Translations under genes and position numbers: made by a program | Assembly: GCA_947089145.1 (NCBI GenBank) | Contig: CAMUJH010000039.1 | Span: 1-37,484, forward strand | Direction: 5' to 3' | DNA: 37,484 nucleotides | From: an uncultured Hungatella sp. | GTDB lineage: Bacteria; Bacillota; Clostridia; Lachnospirales; Lachnospiraceae | Part shown: one piece after another, positions 3,084-11,410 of the stretch | Numbering within the stretch: position 1 is the first letter of the stretch | How the letters are laid out: each line of letters begins with the position of its first letter | Notes under the pieces: model-generated | Seen by the model: the letters and a program-made list of their open reading frames with translations, nothing else | The model's database searches: none | What the model was told of the DNA's origin: nothing

Positions 3084-4124
3084 CTATATCTTATACAAAC
3101 CATCCGCCTTCAAATCTGTAGTCGCATCCATCATAATTTCAGCCGCTTTTCTCTCTATTAATTCTAACAAATTCCCTCTTGTCTTAAACAATTCTTTTAA
3201 TTCTTTTCCGCAAATAGAAATAATGACTATTCCATGTATCAGATAATAGCTAATGGCTAACTGTTTAAAAGTGCTTGGACCCTCTTTTTTAGAAATAATA
3301 ATTCCAAATTTTATACATTCTCCTTTTCCCCCTGCATTAGCTACTGAAATAATACTATGTAATTTCGACAAATAGGTACCGCTTGGAGTTTTTGCCTCGT
3401 TTTTACATTCAATATAAAAATGAGATCCCAATATATTAAAAATCCCAAAGTTTAGATACCATTTATTGCGAACACAACAGTCAATTTGATTTATTGATGT
3501 TCTTATACCTGACGCTCTAAACGCTGAACACATATTAAATAGTTTTCCAGTCAGTTCTTCAAGCGTATCTCCGATACTTTTAGTAGTTCCTTTATGATTC
3601 TCCACTTTTATATACATATCTAATAAATGCTGATACTGCTCATCTGATAATTGAAATAGGTATTCATTAACACCACCTGCCAGGAAAACGCTCTCCATAG
3701 AGTCCTCATGGACAACAGCCCTGGCTGGTGGACTAATTTCTACCTGCTGTCCATTTATAAAAATTCTATTATCGATTAAGCTATACAAAATTTCAATATC
3801 TTTAGGCGTTACTTCTATTTCTTCATTACAACCATAACATTCAAATATACCTTCAGGTATTTCTATTGGAGAAGACACTCTTTTAATAAGCATATTGCAT
3901 TCTGGACATCTGATTCCATATGATACCGACAAAAGTCCCTCTTTCAGACACTTTGTTAAGCTTTTGCTTGCAACATCGTGAGAAACTCCTATTGCCCTTG
4001 CAACTTTTGAAACAGTAATATTATCGCAAGCGCTTCCTATAAGCTCCGCAAAATATTTGTCCAGTCTTTCTATCTGATCTTCAGTCAACAATTCTTGTAG
4101 TACCAATAAACGAGAACAATACAT
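3084..4124 (-). CDS. Winged helix - zinc ribbon - PD-(D/E)XK nuclease protein
   Basis: A 346-residue protein with three visible parts. Residues about 12-70 look like a winged-helix DNA-binding domain (VSKVARAIGVSHDVASKSL). A zinc ribbon follows with Cys73/Cys76 and Cys96/Cys99. Residues about 180-320 resemble a restriction-endonuclease fold: Glu189/190 in a GDTLEELTG helix, Asp215 in NQIDCCV, and Glu239-x-Lys241 in FYIECKN, followed by a hydrophobic strand (KFGIIIS). All expected catalytic acids and the lysine are present, so the nuclease is probably active. The closest broad comparison is Mrr-like type IV endonucleases, but I do not recognise the full architecture. The start is the ATG with GGAGG about 10 nt upstream. 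It lies inside the end of the upstream gene (44-base overlap), so the two are almost certainly co-translated. Confidence 0.75.
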   Translation of the reverse strand: MYCSRLLVLQELLTEDQIERLDKYFAELIGSACDNITVSKVARAIGVSHDVASKSLTKCLKEGLLSVSYGIRCPECNMLIKRVSSPIEIPEGIFECYGCNEEIEVTPKDIEILYSLIDNRIFINGQQVEISPPARAVVHEDSMESVFLAGGVNEYLFQLSDEQYQHLLDMYIKVENHKGTTKSIGDTLEELTGKLFNMCSAFRASGIRTSINQIDCCVRNKWYLNFGIFNILGSHFYIECKNEAKTPSGTYLSKLHSIISVANAGGKGECIKFGIIISKKEGPSTFKQLAISYYLIHGIVIISICGKELKELFKTRGNLLELIERKAAEIMMDATTDLKADGLYKI

Positions 4125-5307
4125 ATATAATATCCTCCTCCATAGTGTACTCTGTAAACTTTAATGTACAATAATCTTTCTCAATAACAATCCTTACTTT
4201 AAATTGTTTGCTACAATATAATGCATTTCTCCTATTAAACATGAATGAAGCCCCATCACAGGATTGACTTTTCTGCAGCATCTTTTTATTATCAAAGAAA
4301 ATCGCTTTCGATTGCAGTGGATTTTCCATTGCCGCCGTTTGTTCAACTGTGGAATCTTCCTCATCTGTTGCATTTAACTTTAGAGGATATGCATCCCTGT
4401 CTTTTGTAAAAATCTTTTTGTCCGGATAACTTATAGAAAAATACTTTTCTATCATATTAAGAACACTTGATTTTACATCCTCTCTATAGTTATTTGGAAG
4501 ATCACATATGTTCTTCATTAATGAATCAATCATTTCATCGGTTTTCTCTGCTTTTTCACTCATCAGTTCCAGGATTTCTTTTGGTGTCTGTGTATACTTT
4601 TCTAGCATCAAATATAATTGTTTTTTAAAGAACTCTCCTGCTTTGGACTTTGAAGCCGTCTCTATAGAAAAAAGCTCACATACCTGCTTTATTGCTTTAT
4701 TCAATTCTTTCTCTGCAGTAGTAGATATTGCTGCATCTAAAACAAAATTATCCATATACTTATACATACCTGCTTTTGATTTTGCTCTGGCAACAATAAG
4801 TCTTTTATCTAAAAATATTTCTACAAAAATAGGATAAGGCACCGATGCTGATCCTGTTTTCTTATCATAAATACAAATCAATTTTCCCAAATAGAGCATA
4901 ATACGCCTGCCCTGCTCACTATCTGACACAATTTTATATCTATAAAGACGTAAACTCTCCGTATAATTTCCATATAAATGACAGTTGTTATTATCCACCA
5001 AAGCAGGAGACAATATACGTTCTATATAAGTATTATTTAATAATAAAACAATAGAAGAATTATCTTCCAGATATTTTATTTGAATGTCTTTTATCCCTTC
5101 GATCAATACCTGATCCAGCCAGTCAAGGACTATTTGTTTATTTTCTTCAGATTGATTAGCATAATTTTCTATATCTTTAATTAATTGCGGTCTGTCAACA
5201 GTTGTTTTCAAATCTTCTTTACGTTTTTCTTTTGCAAATCTTCTCAAAGCAGGTATTGTAATGTAACTTTCATCTTCACTAGCAAATGTATGTGGAATGG
5301 AAAACAT
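4081..5307 (-). CDS. Unrecognised 408-aa protein, first gene of the nuclease cassette
   Basis: I do not recognise this protein. It is soluble, with no signal peptide or membrane segment. Residues about 28-83 form a charged helical section (RPQLIKDIENYANQS, then VLDWLDQVLIEGIKDI) that looks like a small helical domain. Residues about 85-180 alternate hydrophobic strands (IVLLLNN, YPIFVEIFLDKRLIVAR), suggesting a beta-rich domain. A lysine-rich helical section follows to about residue 300, then a low-complexity acidic linker and a final beta-like segment. A very strong AAGGAGG precedes the ATG. The downstream winged-helix/nuclease gene overlaps its 3' end by 44 bases. By context it is a sensor, adaptor or target-recognition partner of that nuclease; this is inference. 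Confidence 0.7.
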   Translation of the reverse strand: MFSIPHTFASEDESYITIPALRRFAKEKRKEDLKTTVDRPQLIKDIENYANQSEENKQIVLDWLDQVLIEGIKDIQIKYLEDNSSIVLLLNNTYIERILSPALVDNNNCHLYGNYTESLRLYRYKIVSDSEQGRRIMLYLGKLICIYDKKTGSASVPYPIFVEIFLDKRLIVARAKSKAGMYKYMDNFVLDAAISTTAEKELNKAIKQVCELFSIETASKSKAGEFFKKQLYLMLEKYTQTPKEILELMSEKAEKTDEMIDSLMKNICDLPNNYREDVKSSVLNMIEKYFSISYPDKKIFTKDRDAYPLKLNATDEEDSTVEQTAAMENPLQSKAIFFDNKKMLQKSQSCDGASFMFNRRNALYCSKQFKVRIVIEKDYCTLKFTEYTMEEDIIYVLFSFIGTTRIVD

Positions 5308-5536
5308 ATAAAAACCTCCTTCACAATTTATCTTATTATATCATATCTTTCTCCATTCCGTATGCATTCTTTTCTAATACTATTTCAACAGTTATCTGAT
5401 AATTCAAATTATTGGTAATATATTTACTATTTAGAATTCGACTATATCATTATCACATATAGTATGCCAAACATATGTTCTGTTTTCAAGAGAAAGTTAT
5501 TATCAGACACATAGATTGTCTCAATAAATCTTTCTG

Positions 5537-5572: not shown

Positions 5573-6178
5573 CTAAATTAACCGGATTTTCCGTTTTCTA
5601 TCCATACACTTACAAAAAAACACCGCCACCAATGTACTCACCGCCGTTGCTACAATCGCAGGTCCTACAATAGCTGCAGGATTCACACTCCCATACTGAC
5701 TTCTGTATGCAATCATATTCACCGGAATCAACTGTAACGAAGAAATATTAATAATTAAAAACGTACACATCTCATTGCTTGCCACACCTCCAGATACACG
5801 CTTCCGTTCCTTTTCCAGCTTCGCCAATTCCTCCATCGCCTTCAACCCCGCCGGCGTAGCCGCCCATCCCAGTCCCAGAACATTGGCGATTATATTAGTT
5901 GCAATGGCGTCTCCCGCCGGATGCCCTTTCGGCAGGTTGGGAAACAGAAACTTAAGAACCGGCTTCATCCTTTTCGTAATCTGCCCAATCAGTCCTGCCT
6001 GCTGTCCGATCTCCAAGATCCCTGTCCACAGCGCCATTACCCCAAGCATAGTAATGCACAGGCTTACAGCCTCCTTGGCAGAGTCAAGCACGCCTTGAGT
6101 CACCTGACTCATGGTCCCATGGAGCGCCCCCCATAAAATCCCTACAAGTACCATAAACGCCCAAAGATAATTTAACAT
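5573..6178 (-). CDS. spmA: Spore maturation protein A (nucleoside-recognition/Gate domain membrane protein)
   Basis: A 201-residue multi-spanning membrane protein matching SpmA. Its N-terminus is MLNYLWAFM, then GTMSQVTQGVLDSAKEAVSL, a central GHPAGDAIATN-IIANVLGLGWAATPAGLKAMEEL and a C-terminal transmembrane hairpin. In Bacillus, SpmA with SpmB is needed for spore core dehydration and heat resistance. I chose the ATG at 6178 because family members start with a short Met-hydrophobic helix; an upstream TTG (6193) and GTG (6184) are in frame. SpmB is normally the next gene, but here the minus-strand neighbour is the accessory nuclease cassette, so the usual spmA-spmB linkage seems interrupted. 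Two fragments of this gene lie further left. Confidence 0.9.
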   Translation of the reverse strand: MLNYLWAFMVLVGILWGALHGTMSQVTQGVLDSAKEAVSLCITMLGVMALWTGILEIGQQAGLIGQITKRMKPVLKFLFPNLPKGHPAGDAIATNIIANVLGLGWAATPAGLKAMEELAKLEKERKRVSGGVASNEMCTFLIINISSLQLIPVNMIAYRSQYGSVNPAAIVGPAIVATAVSTLVAVFFCKCMDRKRKIRLI

Positions 6179-6341
6179 ATCCACACCAGACAAAAGCCAA
6201 TCTTTTCCCCATCTTATGCAGAATATTTACCGCTCATGCCATGCATTTTATGAACCTTTTCAAAGAAAAAGGCTTTCCATGAACCCGGATTTATTATATT
6301 ATGGTAACAACATGATCAGACAGTTAACGGGGACTCCTACT

Positions 6342-7283
6342 ATGGAAATTAAAAGACTGCGCCTGGGCGGCATTGTGCTGCCGTCCAATATCCTTATGGC
6401 TCCCTTGGCCGGATATACCTGCTACCCCTTTCGGATGATGGCCTATGAAATGGGAGCCGGGCTGTGCTTTACGGAAATGTGCAGCGCCAATGCGCTGAAA
6501 TATCAGGACAAGGCCACCAGAAAGCTTCTCTTTACCACCAAAGAAGAGCCGATAAAAGCCGTGCAGCTTCTGGGAGGCGTTCCGGCAATTATGGGGCAGA
6601 CGGCATCGTCCAGGCTGCTGGAGAATTTTGATATTATTGATATTAATATGGGCTGTCCTGTTCCCAATGTATTTAAAAGCGGCGAGGGCTGCGCTTTGAT
6701 GCTGGATCAGCCAAGGGCTGCCGCTATTATACGGGCATGTAAAAAAAGCGGGAAAACTGTCACGGTAAAATGCCGGACCGGTATCCAGAAAGATAATATG
6801 TTTGCCGCAGAATTTGCCCGTATGTGTGAAGACGCCGGAGCTGATATGATTACAATTCACGGGCGCAGCCGCAGTATGATGTATGACGGGGAATGCTGTT
6901 ATGAGGAGATTGCCCAGGCAAAGGCTGCCGTCTCCATTCCGGTTATTGCCAACGGGGGGATTTTCTCAATGGCTGACGCAGAAATTATGATGGAGCGAAC
7001 AGGGGCTGACGGGGTAATGATTGCGCGTTACGGGTTGGAGAATCCGTTTATTTTCAGCCAGCTTACAAGACAGCCTGTTAAAAAGAGCGCCCTGCAGATT
7101 ATGCTGGAGCAAATGGAACTGGCCTCTTTCTGCTATGATGAAACATTTACCATGGCATATATCCGAAAGCTGGCTTCCTATGGGATGAAAAAGCGAAAAG
7201 GCACAAAAAAATATAAGCAGCAGCTGTATCAATGCGGGAATTTACGTGAGCTGGAAGAGCTGATAAGGCTGATATTTGCTTAG
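6342..7283 (+). CDS. dus: tRNA-dihydrouridine synthase (Dus family)
   Basis: A 313-residue FMN-dependent enzyme that reduces uridine to dihydrouridine in the tRNA D-loop region. Family motifs appear in order: LMAPLAGYT (FMN site), MGCPVPNVFKSGEGCALM with the catalytic Cys, VTVKCRTG, ITIHGRSRSMMYDG, PVIANGGI and GVMIARYGLENPFIF. The length fits the family. Upstream codons are open to 6216, but family members start with a strand like MEIKRLRLGGI, so I use the ATG at 6342 with a GGGGA about 8 nt ahead. It is divergent from spmA. The LRR gene follows after 89 bases on the same strand, without an obvious terminator between them. It is too diverged to assign to DusB or DusC by eye. Confidence 0.93.
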   Translation: MEIKRLRLGGIVLPSNILMAPLAGYTCYPFRMMAYEMGAGLCFTEMCSANALKYQDKATRKLLFTTKEEPIKAVQLLGGVPAIMGQTASSRLLENFDIIDINMGCPVPNVFKSGEGCALMLDQPRAAAIIRACKKSGKTVTVKCRTGIQKDNMFAAEFARMCEDAGADMITIHGRSRSMMYDGECCYEEIAQAKAAVSIPVIANGGIFSMADAEIMMERTGADGVMIARYGLENPFIFSQLTRQPVKKSALQIMLEQMELASFCYDETFTMAYIRKLASYGMKKRKGTKKYKQQLYQCGNLRELEELIRLIFA

Positions 7284-7328
7284 GTTTGCTTAAATGCCTT
7301 GGGTCATGCTTTCTGCAAATTCAATGTT

Positions 7329-7345
7329 TAAACAGATACTGTTTA
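7329..7345. promoter_or_regulatory. 17-bp perfect palindrome upstream of the LRR gene
   Basis: TAAACAGATACTGTTTA has 7-bp arms around ATA. It lies 28 bases before the LRR start codon and 16 bases before its GGGAGG ribosome binding site. The symmetry and position suit an operator. No cognate regulator is identifiable in the window. Confidence 0.45.
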
Positions 7346-7372
7346 CTTTACCATTTATTTGGGAGGATTTAT

Positions 7373-10300
7373 ATGGTCATAGAAAAGGGGGACTGCTTCC
7401 CCGGCGATTTTCACATAGAAAACGGCGTCCTTAAATCTTACACTGGCAGAGACGAGTTTATCACAGTGCCCAAACATATCCATACCATCGGCAAAGGCGC
7501 CTTTAAAGCCTGCGTGTCTTTAAAAAAGGTGATCCTGCCGTCCGGACTTTCCCGCATTCTGTCAGAAGCCTTCAAGGGCTGCCGCAGGCTGGAAGAAGTC
7601 GAAATTCCAGCCGGCGTCTCCTATGTGGGAGATTATGCATTCCACCGCTGCCACAGCCTGAAATCCATCTCCCTTCCTGTCTCAGTGACAGATCTGGGGG
7701 ACTGTGTGTTTCTCTACTGTGACAGCCTTACCCGCATTTCCATGCCTGGGGTAACGCATCTGGGAAGGCAGGTTTTTGTCAATGATGTGCTGCTGAAGGA
7801 ACTGGAACTCAGCCCTGATCTGAAAGAGGAGTGCATCTGCGACGTCTTCACCGGATGTAGCAGAATTACAGATTTTTCCTTTCCAGGCGGCCAAAGGATT
7901 GTGATTCCGAACGCAGTGGAGGCAGTGGCCGGCAATCTGGAAATTCCCTCCTTAGTCCGATCCATTGCGGTTGATATTCTGCGGATGATGGAACTGGACA
8001 AAAGATGCCTGGTAAAATTCCTTACCAACTTAAAACATGTGGAGATTCCTGAGGGGATTGAAAAAATCGGAAAGAGCTGCTTTTTTGATAAAAGGGGAAT
8101 CATTTCCGTCACATTCCCAGCCTCCCTTCAAGAGATTGAAAGCCGGGCTTTCCGCAACTGCATCAGCCTGGAAAAAATCTCTTTTCATGAAAACCATGTG
8201 CGGATTCATGACGATGCCTTTAAAAACTGCAGCTCTTTAAAAGAAGTCCTTACTTCCCATAACGTTTCCTATATTCTTGAGGGCATTTCCGGGCTTTCTG
8301 GAGAATCCATCCCGTCGCTGGTCAGAACCGTCCATAGGCAGGTTTTGGGAAATTTCCGTCTTAGCGGTTCGATTCTCCTGAAATATCTTGGCAGCGAGTC
8401 AAGGGTTGTAGTTCCCTGGGGCGTCACTTCTATTGCAGAGAATGCGTTTGCAGGAAATGAAGCTATTGACCGGGTAATCCTGCCGGATTCTTTGCTGGAA
8501 GTGGGCGCCGGGGCATTTAGGAACTGCCTGCTTTTGCAGACCATAGAACTTCCCGGGAAATTAAAGCGGTTAGGAGAAGGGGCATTTGAAAACTGCGTAA
8601 AGCTTCTTCGCATAACGCTGCCTGAACAGATAGCCCGGATTGAGGCTAAAACCTTTAAACACTGCCATGGGTTAAGGGAAGTTTCTTTCGGAAGATACGT
8701 CCAGGCAATCGGTGAGCAGGCTTTTTACGGATGCAGGGCCCTAAAGGGGATCTTTTTTCCTGACAGCCTTGTTTCTATCGGCGAAATGGCCTTTTATAGG
8801 TGCAAAGCCTTAAAGGGGCTCAACCTTCTGCCTGGGATCGCCTCTGTCGGAAACCTGGCTTTTGCACAAAGCGGCATCAAAAAAGCCTATATCAGCGGAA
8901 GCTGCAAAGCCTATGGCGCAGACATTTTTTTCGGCTGTCTCTCCCTTAGCAGGCTTGTTTTGAGAACGGGAGTCCGCCATATTCCGGATAAACTGGCCTA
9001 TGGCTGTACTGCCCTAAAGCAGGTAACGGTTCCTGATACGCTGGAATCTGCGGGAAAACACCCATGGGAACATACCCCGTTTCTGAAAAGCTGGATTAAA
9101 AATCAGACAGAGAATAACGAAGATGGAGAAACTGCCTTTGTGTTCTGGGACGGGCGGGATCTGAAAGGTGACATTCATCTCTCATCACATATTCGGATCG
9201 TAGCAGGAGGCGCGTTTTATGGAAACGCCGCCATTACATCGATCCATTTTCCTGACAGCATTACATGGATTGGCCCTGCTGCGTTAAAGGGCTGCTCATC
9301 TCTGCGCCAGGTAATCTGGCCCGCAGCAGCAGAGACTGCTGAGTCAGAAGTTTTCTCCGGCTGTACTGCCCTGGAATCCGTCCGGCTTGGGAACGCTTCG
9401 CTTTCTCCCTGCATTTCATGGAAGTTTATAAAAGAGCGGGCTTTTTACAACTGCCGGAAGCTCTGCTGTATTTCATTGGAAAATACACTGGCCGTTGGAA
9501 AAGAGGCCTTCTACAGATGCAGTTCCTACGCGCCGGGAACAGCGGATTTGCTGCGCTATGCAGGGGAAGGCGCTTTTGAAAAAACAGCATTGTTTGACAA
9601 GGCTTCCTCCTTCTATGTTCTTGGTGCAGTAATCGTGTCTGGCTCTCACTGTACAGGCGAAATACATGTGCCAGAGGGAATCGCAGCTATTGCGCCATTT
9701 GCATTTTCCGGTAACCGCCGGATCACGAAGCTGTTTCTTCCTGACCATCTTCGCTCCATTGGGGAAGGCGCTTTCTGGGGCTGCAGCAGCCTAACAGATA
9801 TACGGTTTCCTTCATCTCCATGCGCCATAGGCCCCCGTTCTTTTGAAAAATGCATAAGCCTTTCAAGTATATGCTTTCACGGAGATTTTGCAGGGCCTGC
9901 TGCCTTTGCCTACTGCACATCTCTGAAAAAAGCGGAAATCTACGGACTTCATACCTTGGAAGCCCGCCTGTTTGAAGGCTGCTCCAGCCTGGAAGCATGC
10001 ATGTGCAGGCAGATTGCTGTTATTGGGCCATACTGTTTCAGCGGCTGCGTCAAATTAAGGCATTATGATTTTCCCCAGGCCCAGGAAATAGGAAGTTATG
10101 CCTTTCAGAATTGTGATTCTCTGCGGCAAATAAAGCTTGCAGGCAGCGTTCTGATCCATCCTCATGCTTTTGAGGACTGCGGGCGTCTGGAAAAAATATC
10201 CCTGGCAGAAAGCCAGGGGCAGGCAAGGCTTTATGAATACGCCTTTTCCGGCTGCACGGCTGTCAGTCAGGCAGTCTGCCAGGGACAGGTGTGGAACCTG

Positions 10301-11410
10301 CATGAATACAGAGATATTCTAAGGGAATCCATCCCTGAAATAGTCCGCCTGATTTTCCACAGCTGCTTCAGCTGCTTTGACATAGAGCACGAGGAAACCT
10401 TATACGGATACAGAGGAATGGGACATATTGTAACAATACCAAGGGGAATCCGGCGAATCGGGGCCGAGGTGTTTCGGGATGTCCTTATGCTGGAAGAGGT
10501 AAACATTCCCGACACTGTGGAATACATCGGAGCTAGGGCCTTTCACGGAACTGCCTGGATGAAAAAGCAGCAGAGCCTGTCGCCTCTGGTAACTGTTAAC
10601 CATATGCTTCTGGATGGCTCCTGCTGCGCGGGAGATGTCACTGTTCCAAGGGATATCCGGCTGGTATGCGGCTGGGCATTTGCGGGCGGAATAGGTATTG
10701 AAAGAATCCGCTTTCTGTCTGACCGGATAACTGTAGAGGCATATGCATTTCGGAACTGCATTTACCTGAAAGAACTTGTGTCCGGCGACGGCGCCTCGGT
10801 TATTTTTCAGGGAATCGCTGACAGGAAAAGAAACCTTCCTCCCCTGGCCATGCAGGCAGTTATGGAAATGCTTAACTGTTTTAAAACAGACGAACAAGAT
10901 GTCCTTGTGGAATGTACCGGCAATATTTCCCGTCTGCTGTTAGCTGACGGAATCCGCGCTGTCGGCGACAAGGTCTTTCAGGACGGAAATCTTTTGACGG
11001 AAATCACGTTTTCTCAGTCAGTTACCTCCATTGGGAACTGCTCTTTTGCCGGATGCAAATGGCTGAAGCAGGTAAAGCAGGCCTGGGGCGTTACCTCTAT
11101 TGGCCATAAGGCATTTTCCGGATGCGGGGTTTTGGAGAGAATCCAATTATCAGATGCGTTTTGCCATATGGAAGCCAGGGCCTTTGAGAACTGTACTTCT
11201 TTAAAAGAAATCCTTCTGCCTGAGGGATTGGAAGAGATTCCGGACAGGGCGTTTTTCCGGTGCCGCAGCCTGGAAAAAGTCCGCCTTCCGTCGACTCTGA
11301 AACGCATCGGCAAAGAGGCTTTTGCATATTGCAGGAATCTGGAAATGCCATTTGTACCGGACAGCGTATTGGTGGAGGACAGAGCGTTTGCGGGAATTTT
11401 ACAGGACTAA
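7373..11410 (+). CDS. Giant BspA-like leucine-rich repeat protein (LRR_5), apparently not secreted
   Basis: A 1345-residue protein built almost entirely of LRR_5/BspA-type units of about 23 residues (pattern: IGxxAFxxCxSLxxIxLPxxL). The start is the ATG with GGGAGG 6 bases upstream. It begins MVIEKGDCFPG, and I see no signal peptide, lipobox, LPXTG or membrane helix, unlike typical BspA surface proteins. The units are grouped into larger blocks. Several blocks open with a non-repeat linker (IPxLVR plus a hydrophobic helix), then a strand such as LLKYLG or TLYGYRG and a VxxPxxIxxIG entry repeat. Known LRR_5 proteins mostly bind proteins or glycans, and the role here is unknown. It sits between dus and an aldo/keto reductase gene, all on the plus strand. 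Confidence 0.9.
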   Translation: MVIEKGDCFPGDFHIENGVLKSYTGRDEFITVPKHIHTIGKGAFKACVSLKKVILPSGLSRILSEAFKGCRRLEEVEIPAGVSYVGDYAFHRCHSLKSISLPVSVTDLGDCVFLYCDSLTRISMPGVTHLGRQVFVNDVLLKELELSPDLKEECICDVFTGCSRITDFSFPGGQRIVIPNAVEAVAGNLEIPSLVRSIAVDILRMMELDKRCLVKFLTNLKHVEIPEGIEKIGKSCFFDKRGIISVTFPASLQEIESRAFRNCISLEKISFHENHVRIHDDAFKNCSSLKEVLTSHNVSYILEGISGLSGESIPSLVRTVHRQVLGNFRLSGSILLKYLGSESRVVVPWGVTSIAENAFAGNEAIDRVILPDSLLEVGAGAFRNCLLLQTIELPGKLKRLGEGAFENCVKLLRITLPEQIARIEAKTFKHCHGLREVSFGRYVQAIGEQAFYGCRALKGIFFPDSLVSIGEMAFYRCKALKGLNLLPGIASVGNLAFAQSGIKKAYISGSCKAYGADIFFGCLSLSRLVLRTGVRHIPDKLAYGCTALKQVTVPDTLESAGKHPWEHTPFLKSWIKNQTENNEDGETAFVFWDGRDLKGDIHLSSHIRIVAGGAFYGNAAITSIHFPDSITWIGPAALKGCSSLRQVIWPAAAETAESEVFSGCTALESVRLGNASLSPCISWKFIKERAFYNCRKLCCISLENTLAVGKEAFYRCSSYAPGTADLLRYAGEGAFEKTALFDKASSFYVLGAVIVSGSHCTGEIHVPEGIAAIAPFAFSGNRRITKLFLPDHLRSIGEGAFWGCSSLTDIRFPSSPCAIGPRSFEKCISLSSICFHGDFAGPAAFAYCTSLKKAEIYGLHTLEARLFEGCSSLEACMCRQIAVIGPYCFSGCVKLRHYDFPQAQEIGSYAFQNCDSLRQIKLAGSVLIHPHAFEDCGRLEKISLAESQGQARLYEYAFSGCTAVSQAVCQGQVWNLHEYRDILRESIPEIVRLIFHSCFSCFDIEHEETLYGYRGMGHIVTIPRGIRRIGAEVFRDVLMLEEVNIPDTVEYIGARAFHGTAWMKKQQSLSPLVTVNHMLLDGSCCAGDVTVPRDIRLVCGWAFAGGIGIERIRFLSDRITVEAYAFRNCIYLKELVSGDGASVIFQGIADRKRNLPPLAMQAVMEMLNCFKTDEQDVLVECTGNISRLLLADGIRAVGDKVFQDGNLLTEITFSQSVTSIGNCSFAGCKWLKQVKQAWGVTSIGHKAFSGCGVLERIQLSDAFCHMEARAFENCTSLKEILLPEGLEEIPDRAFFRCRSLEKVRLPSTLKRIGKEAFAYCRNLEMPFVPDSVLVEDRAFAGILQD

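Follow-up and report, generated by a model that had tools for sequence, protein, structure and literature searches.

What does an overlapping pair of genes, the first of them without a family name, do on the chromosome of an uncultured Hungatella sp.? In the window (the whole 37,484-nucleotide stretch analysed here, contig CAMUJH010000039.1 of GenBank assembly GCA_947089145.1) both genes are intact ORFs on the minus strand. P1 (4081-5307) encodes the constant partner of the pair, a 408-aa protein for which ORF calls, family searches, alignment and an AF2 model gave no family. P2 (3084-4124) encodes a 346-aa protein that its ORF, alignment, model and Foldseek matches present as an adaptor joined to a nuclease. 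The two overlap by 44 bases (4081-4124, 2 modulo 3), as the first-pass annotation had reported. An AGGAGG ribosome-binding site can be read in the sequence ahead of each gene (5315-5320 for P1, 4134-4139 for P2), and a motif scan placed an extended -10 promoter motif, TGATATAAT, at 5335-5343, 36 bases 5′ of the P1 start, all on the same minus strand.

Searches of family collections and of the PDB, by single sequence or by alignment, yielded no usable name for P1, and the earlier statement that it belongs to no named family has stood. Window P1 and P2 both fall below the curated cut-offs of Pfam and NCBIfam and have only weak matches in PADLOC and PHROGs. The best in PADLOC are mad3 for P1 (E 0.0052) and CARF4 PDDEXK for P2 (E 0.0046), so that neither has a strong PADLOC match and no known defence model fits P1; the best PHROG for P1 is 35861, function unknown (E 2e-4). 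One of 20 P1 members has a Pfam match, a weak one (E 0.0016). The AF2 model of P1 is good (pLDDT 80.5), and its top PDB match in Foldseek has a probability of 0.14. RdgC was considered as an identity on a Foldseek lead (probability 0.89, TM 0.29/0.37, E 0.02), and several phage RdgC proteins are among the BFVD matches of the model; hhalign against a single RdgC sequence, and against a set of five, gave a profile relation of 0.1%, and sequence lends the lead no support. An unnamed BFVD model (E 8e-5) was rejected at TM 0.20/0.17, and a SAP domain guessed by eye at the N-terminus was unsupported when checked.

P2 opens with a winged helix (approximately residues 1-66, 3927-4124), also matched by Foldseek, and a zinc ribbon with Cys73/76/96/99 (approximately residues 72-105, 3810-3911), both common to the nuclease and membrane versions described below. 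It ends in an exchangeable PD-(D/E)XK domain (approximately residues 179-331, 3132-3590; all minus strand) recognised by alignment and Foldseek. In the 16 of 20 nuclease loci that were aligned (leaving out L007, L020 (P2 frameshifted), L027 and L148), Glu189, Asp215, Glu239, Lys241 and the four cysteines are invariant, which bears out the earlier claim of intact Asp215, Glu239 and Lys241. The E...D...ExK catalytic set of the PD-(D/E)XK superfamily is present, and on this set and the modelled fold P2 is a predicted member of that superfamily. The model is modest (pLDDT 59.5), and its best Foldseek match, the nickase Nt.BspD6I (probability 0.99, E 3.3e-3), is to be read with that quality in mind; further matches are MarR/ArsR winged helices, and none reaches E 0.001 or better. 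P2 members show scattered matches to winged-helix, Mrr and DUF2130 models, and the L032 protein alone among them passes the Pfam DUF2130 cut-off. EAP30, S25 and MarR matches of P2 and its relatives were taken merely as 'winged helix'.

P1 was found at 25 loci (the window, L002-L004, L007-L011, L013-L015, L020, L021, L024-L030, L032-L034 and L148) in scans of IMG/VR, genome contigs, INPHARED phages, PLSDB plasmids and whole genomes. In all 25 it is accompanied by a P2 that overlaps it in one and the same relative frame, so the co-occurrence suggested for checking by the first-pass annotation is complete. The 24 further loci have 22-76% identity to the window proteins in P1 and P2 alignments. 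Distinct cassettes number 23, since L007 is a copy of L008 (P2 identical, P1 identical over the compared stretch) and L027 of L026 (one difference in 2254 bases); L001, L003, L038 and L149 refer to a single contig. Many of the loci come from metagenome assemblies, and four (L007, L008, L011 and L020) hold broken copies. The overlap measures 29 to 107 bases, some values perhaps being shorter in truth because every ORF was taken from its first start codon, and is always 2 modulo 3 (25/25). This frame is inherited rather than reached in 25 independent events, and has lasted down to 22% P1 identity. Between L003 and L002, Ka and Ks are 0.07 and 1.06 for P1 and 0.04 and 0.98 for P2; in comparison with the window copy, synonymous changes approach saturation and the measure is limited to pN/pS (0.23-0.44). 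The pair is shown by these values to be under purifying selection. Since it also recurs with its overlap in 24 further loci, the pairing of P1 with P2 is beyond chance.

The term nuclease cassette, used in the first-pass annotation, is right for 20 of the 25 loci (frameshifted L020 among these) and wrong for the five with membrane or split ends; it is too narrow because the nuclease is one of at least two exchangeable ends. Four loci (L004, L010, L024 and L025) have a membrane-type P2 with the same start and, instead of a nuclease, one or two hydrophobic segments within residues 191-247. L034 has the adaptor as a protein of its own (186 aa) and, following it, another protein that contains a single hydrophobic segment. 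By the same hydropathy criterion one marginal segment (1.65, limit 1.6) was scored in the window nuclease domain. On a P1 tree of 20 loci (leaving out the broken P1 of L007, L008 and L011, the near-copy L027 and the later-fetched L148) the effector type changes three times, and the starred branches alone force three changes; the place of L026 is less sure owing to its long branch. By sequence comparison, then, P2 has a constant first part and a putative C-terminal effector that is exchangeable, either a nuclease or a membrane segment.

The pair is rare. In taxon samples that overlap one another and each include the window's own genome, P1 occurs in 2 of 338 genomes at the level of the family, 4 of 392 at that of the order (one a weak fragment), 2 of 391 at that of the class and 1 of 398 at that of the phylum; a P1-like fragment in genome G271 (L022; E 1.3e-4, internal stop) was excluded from all counts. 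INPHARED has P1 in three of 50,697 records, the same three in every scan, none was found in PLSDB plasmids, and the last IMG/VR scan gave 13 loci on contigs that were all already known. A P2 profile matches in 5 of 295 genomes (that of the window, G344, G218, G319 and G121), and P1 is present in the window genome and in G344, whose P2 is frameshifted. G218 carries a distant P1-like gene (hhalign 56%) followed by the adaptor and the nuclease as separate pieces; the matches in G319 and G121 are partial, lie in the nuclease domain inside other ORFs and were not counted. Genome G015 (L023:3894-9729) resembles the cassette in having an overlapping first gene, a small adaptor-like gene before the nuclease and a nuclease homologous to P2 (hhalign 98%), which passes the Pfam Mrr_cat cut-off. 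It differs in that the adaptor and nuclease are separate genes and the first gene is not recognisably P1, no likeness being detected by hhalign (4%). Downstream in L023 lie Olokun-type genes (OloB 2.4e-72, OloA 1.1e-13); we take the PADLOC codes Olo, Nsn and Lmu to stand for Olokun, Menshen and Lamassu. The G218 version and the G015 nuclease suggest a wider family. The first-pass annotation had named a nuclease that usually occurs without its partner as evidence against its reading; this is not the pattern of the P2-profile matches (5/295 genomes), against which stands the G015 nuclease behind a gene other than P1. The literature searched holds no paper on the pair, and systems published elsewhere or after PADLOC-DB 2.0.0 may exist.

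Two gene neighbourhoods among relatives are also of note. At L146:5990-8107 a distant version adjoins lysis-type phage genes (by eye), and its P1-like gene overlaps the adaptor by 137 bases, again 2 modulo 3. In L030 the gene immediately upstream of P1 (6818-7798) is of GmrSD_N (DUF262) type (E 1.9e-10).

A point beyond the first-pass annotation is that the cassette is, as far as gene order indicates, carried mostly by phages, as cargo next to their packaging genes. Such genes adjoin the pair, or what remains of it, in 17 of the 25 loci. The order TerS, TerL, P1, P2, portal is found in three human-faecal phage records (PV036437, PV036424 and PV036435; Ca. Heliusvirales) and likewise in IMG/VR contigs L002 and L003, and in L007/L008 TerL and portal remnants lie on either side of the pair. 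In ten loci (L004, L010, L021, L024, L025, L026, L027, L029, L032 and L033) the pair is upstream of the terminase genes, directly 5′ of them except for one small gene between in L033 and L004; TerS and portal were assigned by eye throughout this set of ten. For L026, L033, L010 and L032 the best annotated TerL matches are terminases, and the three matches listed for the L029 TerL are all annotated hypothetical. Nine TerL proteins fall into six groups with no between-group BLASTP match at 1e-3 (Heliusvirales; L025/L026; L032/L004; L033; L010; and L029/L024, the last named by eye), and one phage lineage therefore cannot account for the common place. Eight loci remain: the window, L009, L011, L020, L148, L028 and L030 (contig ends) and L034 (lysis-type region). 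An integrase was seen by eye downstream of the pair in L011; a portal remnant suspected by eye downstream in L009 was not confirmed by comparison. The P1/P2 pair is not among the nine common genes given for Ca. Heliusviridae in the available part of PMC9226167.

The TerL-portal junction was sampled in the best 80 of 404 TerL relatives in IMG/VR together with the three phage records (83 loci), and both genes could be placed in 71. The gap is below 250 bp (down to 15 bp) in 20 of these and larger in 51, where it mostly holds diverse ORFs; the pair occupies 5 of the 71 junctions, or 2 of 68 once the three records, selected because they carry it, are set aside. In these gut phages (L037-L115) the junction serves as a cargo slot. 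When 20 cargo proteins from 17 loci were compared with Pfam, and 10 proteins from nine of these with PADLOC, defence or toxin-antitoxin matches appeared in five loci: Lamassu in L090 (LmuA 8e-14, LmuB 5e-53), PDC-M03 in L069 and L114, a PemK/MazF-type toxin in L051 and a RelB antitoxin in L097. The remaining 12 of 17 had no defence match in either collection. Cargo with no explanatory family match is seen in L045, L049, L056/L068, L089, L098 and L103, among many, and such genes could be further undescribed systems.

Base composition sets the cassette apart from its carriers. In the window its GC is 0.325 against 0.457 for positions 6001-37484, in agreement with the AT-rich region described before, and in 13 of 13 phage loci it is lower (0.283-0.355) than that of the carrier TerL (0.376-0.605). 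An exact extended -10 motif (TGnTATAAT) stands 33-41 bases 5′ of P1 in 12 of 22 loci (the 25 without L007, L027 and L148) and is absent in 10, compared with 0.3 on average and never more than 3 in 1000 first-order shuffles; with one mismatch allowed it is found in 14 of 22, the shuffles giving a mean of 4.2 and at most 11. The excess is inflated by relatedness, yet the 12 motif loci include the divergent L004, L010, L028 and L029. A plain two-box scan did not list the extended -10 site and found no promoter excess over shuffles. Among slot junctions the exact motif occurs in 5/5 with the pair, in 6/46 with other cargo and in 0/20 empty ones, the stretch tested in the last running into the portal gene. 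In L010 and L029 some 60 bases upstream of P1, promoter motif included, are nearly identical, and only 108 of 384 residues of their P1 proteins are common. This suggests that coding parts have been exchanged behind a common promoter or phage sequence.

In the window the cassette stands on a bacterial chromosome. Apart from P1 and P2, nothing in the window is matched by the phage ORFs of six carrier loci, and a TerL profile found nothing in the window's own genome (87% complete). The neighbours named in the first-pass annotation are recovered with qualification: the PIN protein directly downstream of P2 (2596-3066) stays under the Pfam cut-off (E 4.4e-4, 21.3 bits, cut-off 23.6; weak PADLOC match to PDC-M04B, 9e-4), and the broken ATPase-nuclease gene (AAA-ATPase_like / PDDEXK_9) lies in pieces in three ORFs at 250-1756. 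A further neighbour (5573-6193) is of Gate type, with a Pfam Gate match below the cut-off (E 3e-5), next to a gene named by eye as tRNA-dihydrouridine-synthase-like (6216-7283). The site was compared in the same-genus genomes G024, G007 and G003 (site loci L131 and L133; G022, with a strong flank match, was left out). G024 has Menshen-type NsnA (1.4e-44) and NsnC (8.3e-72) with an ATPase between in two ORFs; G007 has an AbiLi-like ATPase (2.8e-31), a lone JetD (1.6e-141) and a 239-aa partner without clear match; G003 is uninformative, as it has no Gate gene by the synthase. Menshen-type or AbiL-like/JetD genes at the equivalent site in two genomes uphold the view that this is a defence-prone place. 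As separate observations by eye, L009 has an intact gene (3425-4987), some 3 kb upstream of the pair, that starts like the broken ATPase gene of the window, and window positions 7286-11410 hold a 1374-aa ORF of repeated leucine-rich look with fast-diverging relatives at the equivalent place in same-genus genomes.

Taken together, the cassette is probably an unnamed mobile superinfection-exclusion or abortive-infection system, in which P1 would be the sensor or control and P2 an adaptor with an exchangeable killing domain. On the best reading its carriers are mainly temperate phages of gut Bacillota, and here a bacterial chromosome without other phage genes. The cassette would be transcribed on its own in the lysogen, where P1 and the P2 adaptor may be joined in a complex and hold the effector inactive. 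On contact of P1 or the adaptor with some product of a rival phage, the effector would be released to cut DNA, if a nuclease, or to damage the membrane, if a membrane end, and the invader would be stopped, possibly along with the cell. P1 may sense or select the target, as was supposed before. The anti-phage reading draws on the pairing, the effector swap, the catalytic residues, the slots with defence genes, the foreign GC, the promoter motif and purifying selection, and the cassette does share islands or slots with known defence genes. It is weakened by the 12 of 17 cargo loci without defence match, the 10 of 22 loci without exact promoter, the rarity and the absence of a defence model for P1; the place beside packaging genes of unrelated lineages could also mean a lytic-cycle role. 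A further proposal, tentative and rather doubtful, is that P1 monitors packaging, DNA ends or packaging proteins, which would explain its place by the terminase in several unrelated phage lineages, and through the constant adaptor controls whichever killing domain is plugged in, protecting the resident phage, which would make a new class of immune system.

An overlapping two-gene operon with a killing-type domain is also what a toxin-antitoxin or addiction module could look like, with P2 as the toxin and P1 as a large antitoxin or inhibitor stabilising phage or island. MazF-type and RelB genes occupy the same TerL-portal slot, and a PIN gene adjoins the window cassette. P1 is nevertheless large, family searches with its 408 aa gave no antitoxin family match, and an adaptor with changing ends is unusual for toxin-antitoxin modules; this explanation is unlikely. 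It also overlaps with the anti-phage one, as many such modules act against phages.

The position next to packaging genes, seen in 17 of 25 loci and with several terminase groups lacking a mutual BLASTP match, would suit a function in the lytic cycle, linked to packaging or to late genes, in which P1-P2 acts on DNA in packaging or on host DNA. Such a function is improbable. Empty TerL-portal alleles are common (20/71), which puts a terminase-linked function behind, and it fits poorly with membrane versions without nuclease, a base composition foreign to the carrier, a promoter motif that travels with the cargo and copies away from packaging genes (window, L034). The empty and occupied alleles of one junction, together with a DNA-binding fold and a PD-(D/E)XK nuclease, recall instead a free-standing homing endonuclease, an element that would cut empty TerL-portal junctions and in this way pass from phage to phage. 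A nuclease always present and a single insertion site would be expected of it, and the 25 loci do not conform: five are without nuclease, the places differ (TerL/portal, upstream of terminase, lysis region, chromosome) and the same junction takes unrelated cargo. Homing is accordingly very improbable as an explanation.

Compared with described systems, the probable anti-phage cassette comes near to those abortive-infection systems, CBASS among them, whose effectors are exchangeable. They share with it a constant control part, a swappable nuclease or membrane effector and the company of defence genes, whereas searches of P1 and P2 recognised neither a cyclase nor a CARF/SAVED or ATPase family and the adaptor is a winged helix with a zinc ribbon. 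Lamassu, which kills in nuclease-type fashion, occupies the same TerL-portal slot (L090) but has an SMC-like ATPase that P1/P2 lacks, and the PADLOC Lmu models do not match window P1 or P2 up to E 1. Mrr-type and DUF2130 nucleases have the PD-(D/E)XK core in common with P2; window P2 passes neither cut-off, and the adaptor and P1 are extra.

If the anti-phage reading is true, it adds an unnamed anti-phage system that combines exchangeable effectors with a control protein of no known family. The constant adaptor offers a direct handle on whether P1 sets the trigger and the end sets the killing mode, and the TerL/portal junction is a place to seek further undescribed cassettes. The system would also bear on competition between gut phages, in a group that includes Ca. 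Heliusviridae, reported as widespread in the available part of PMC9226167.
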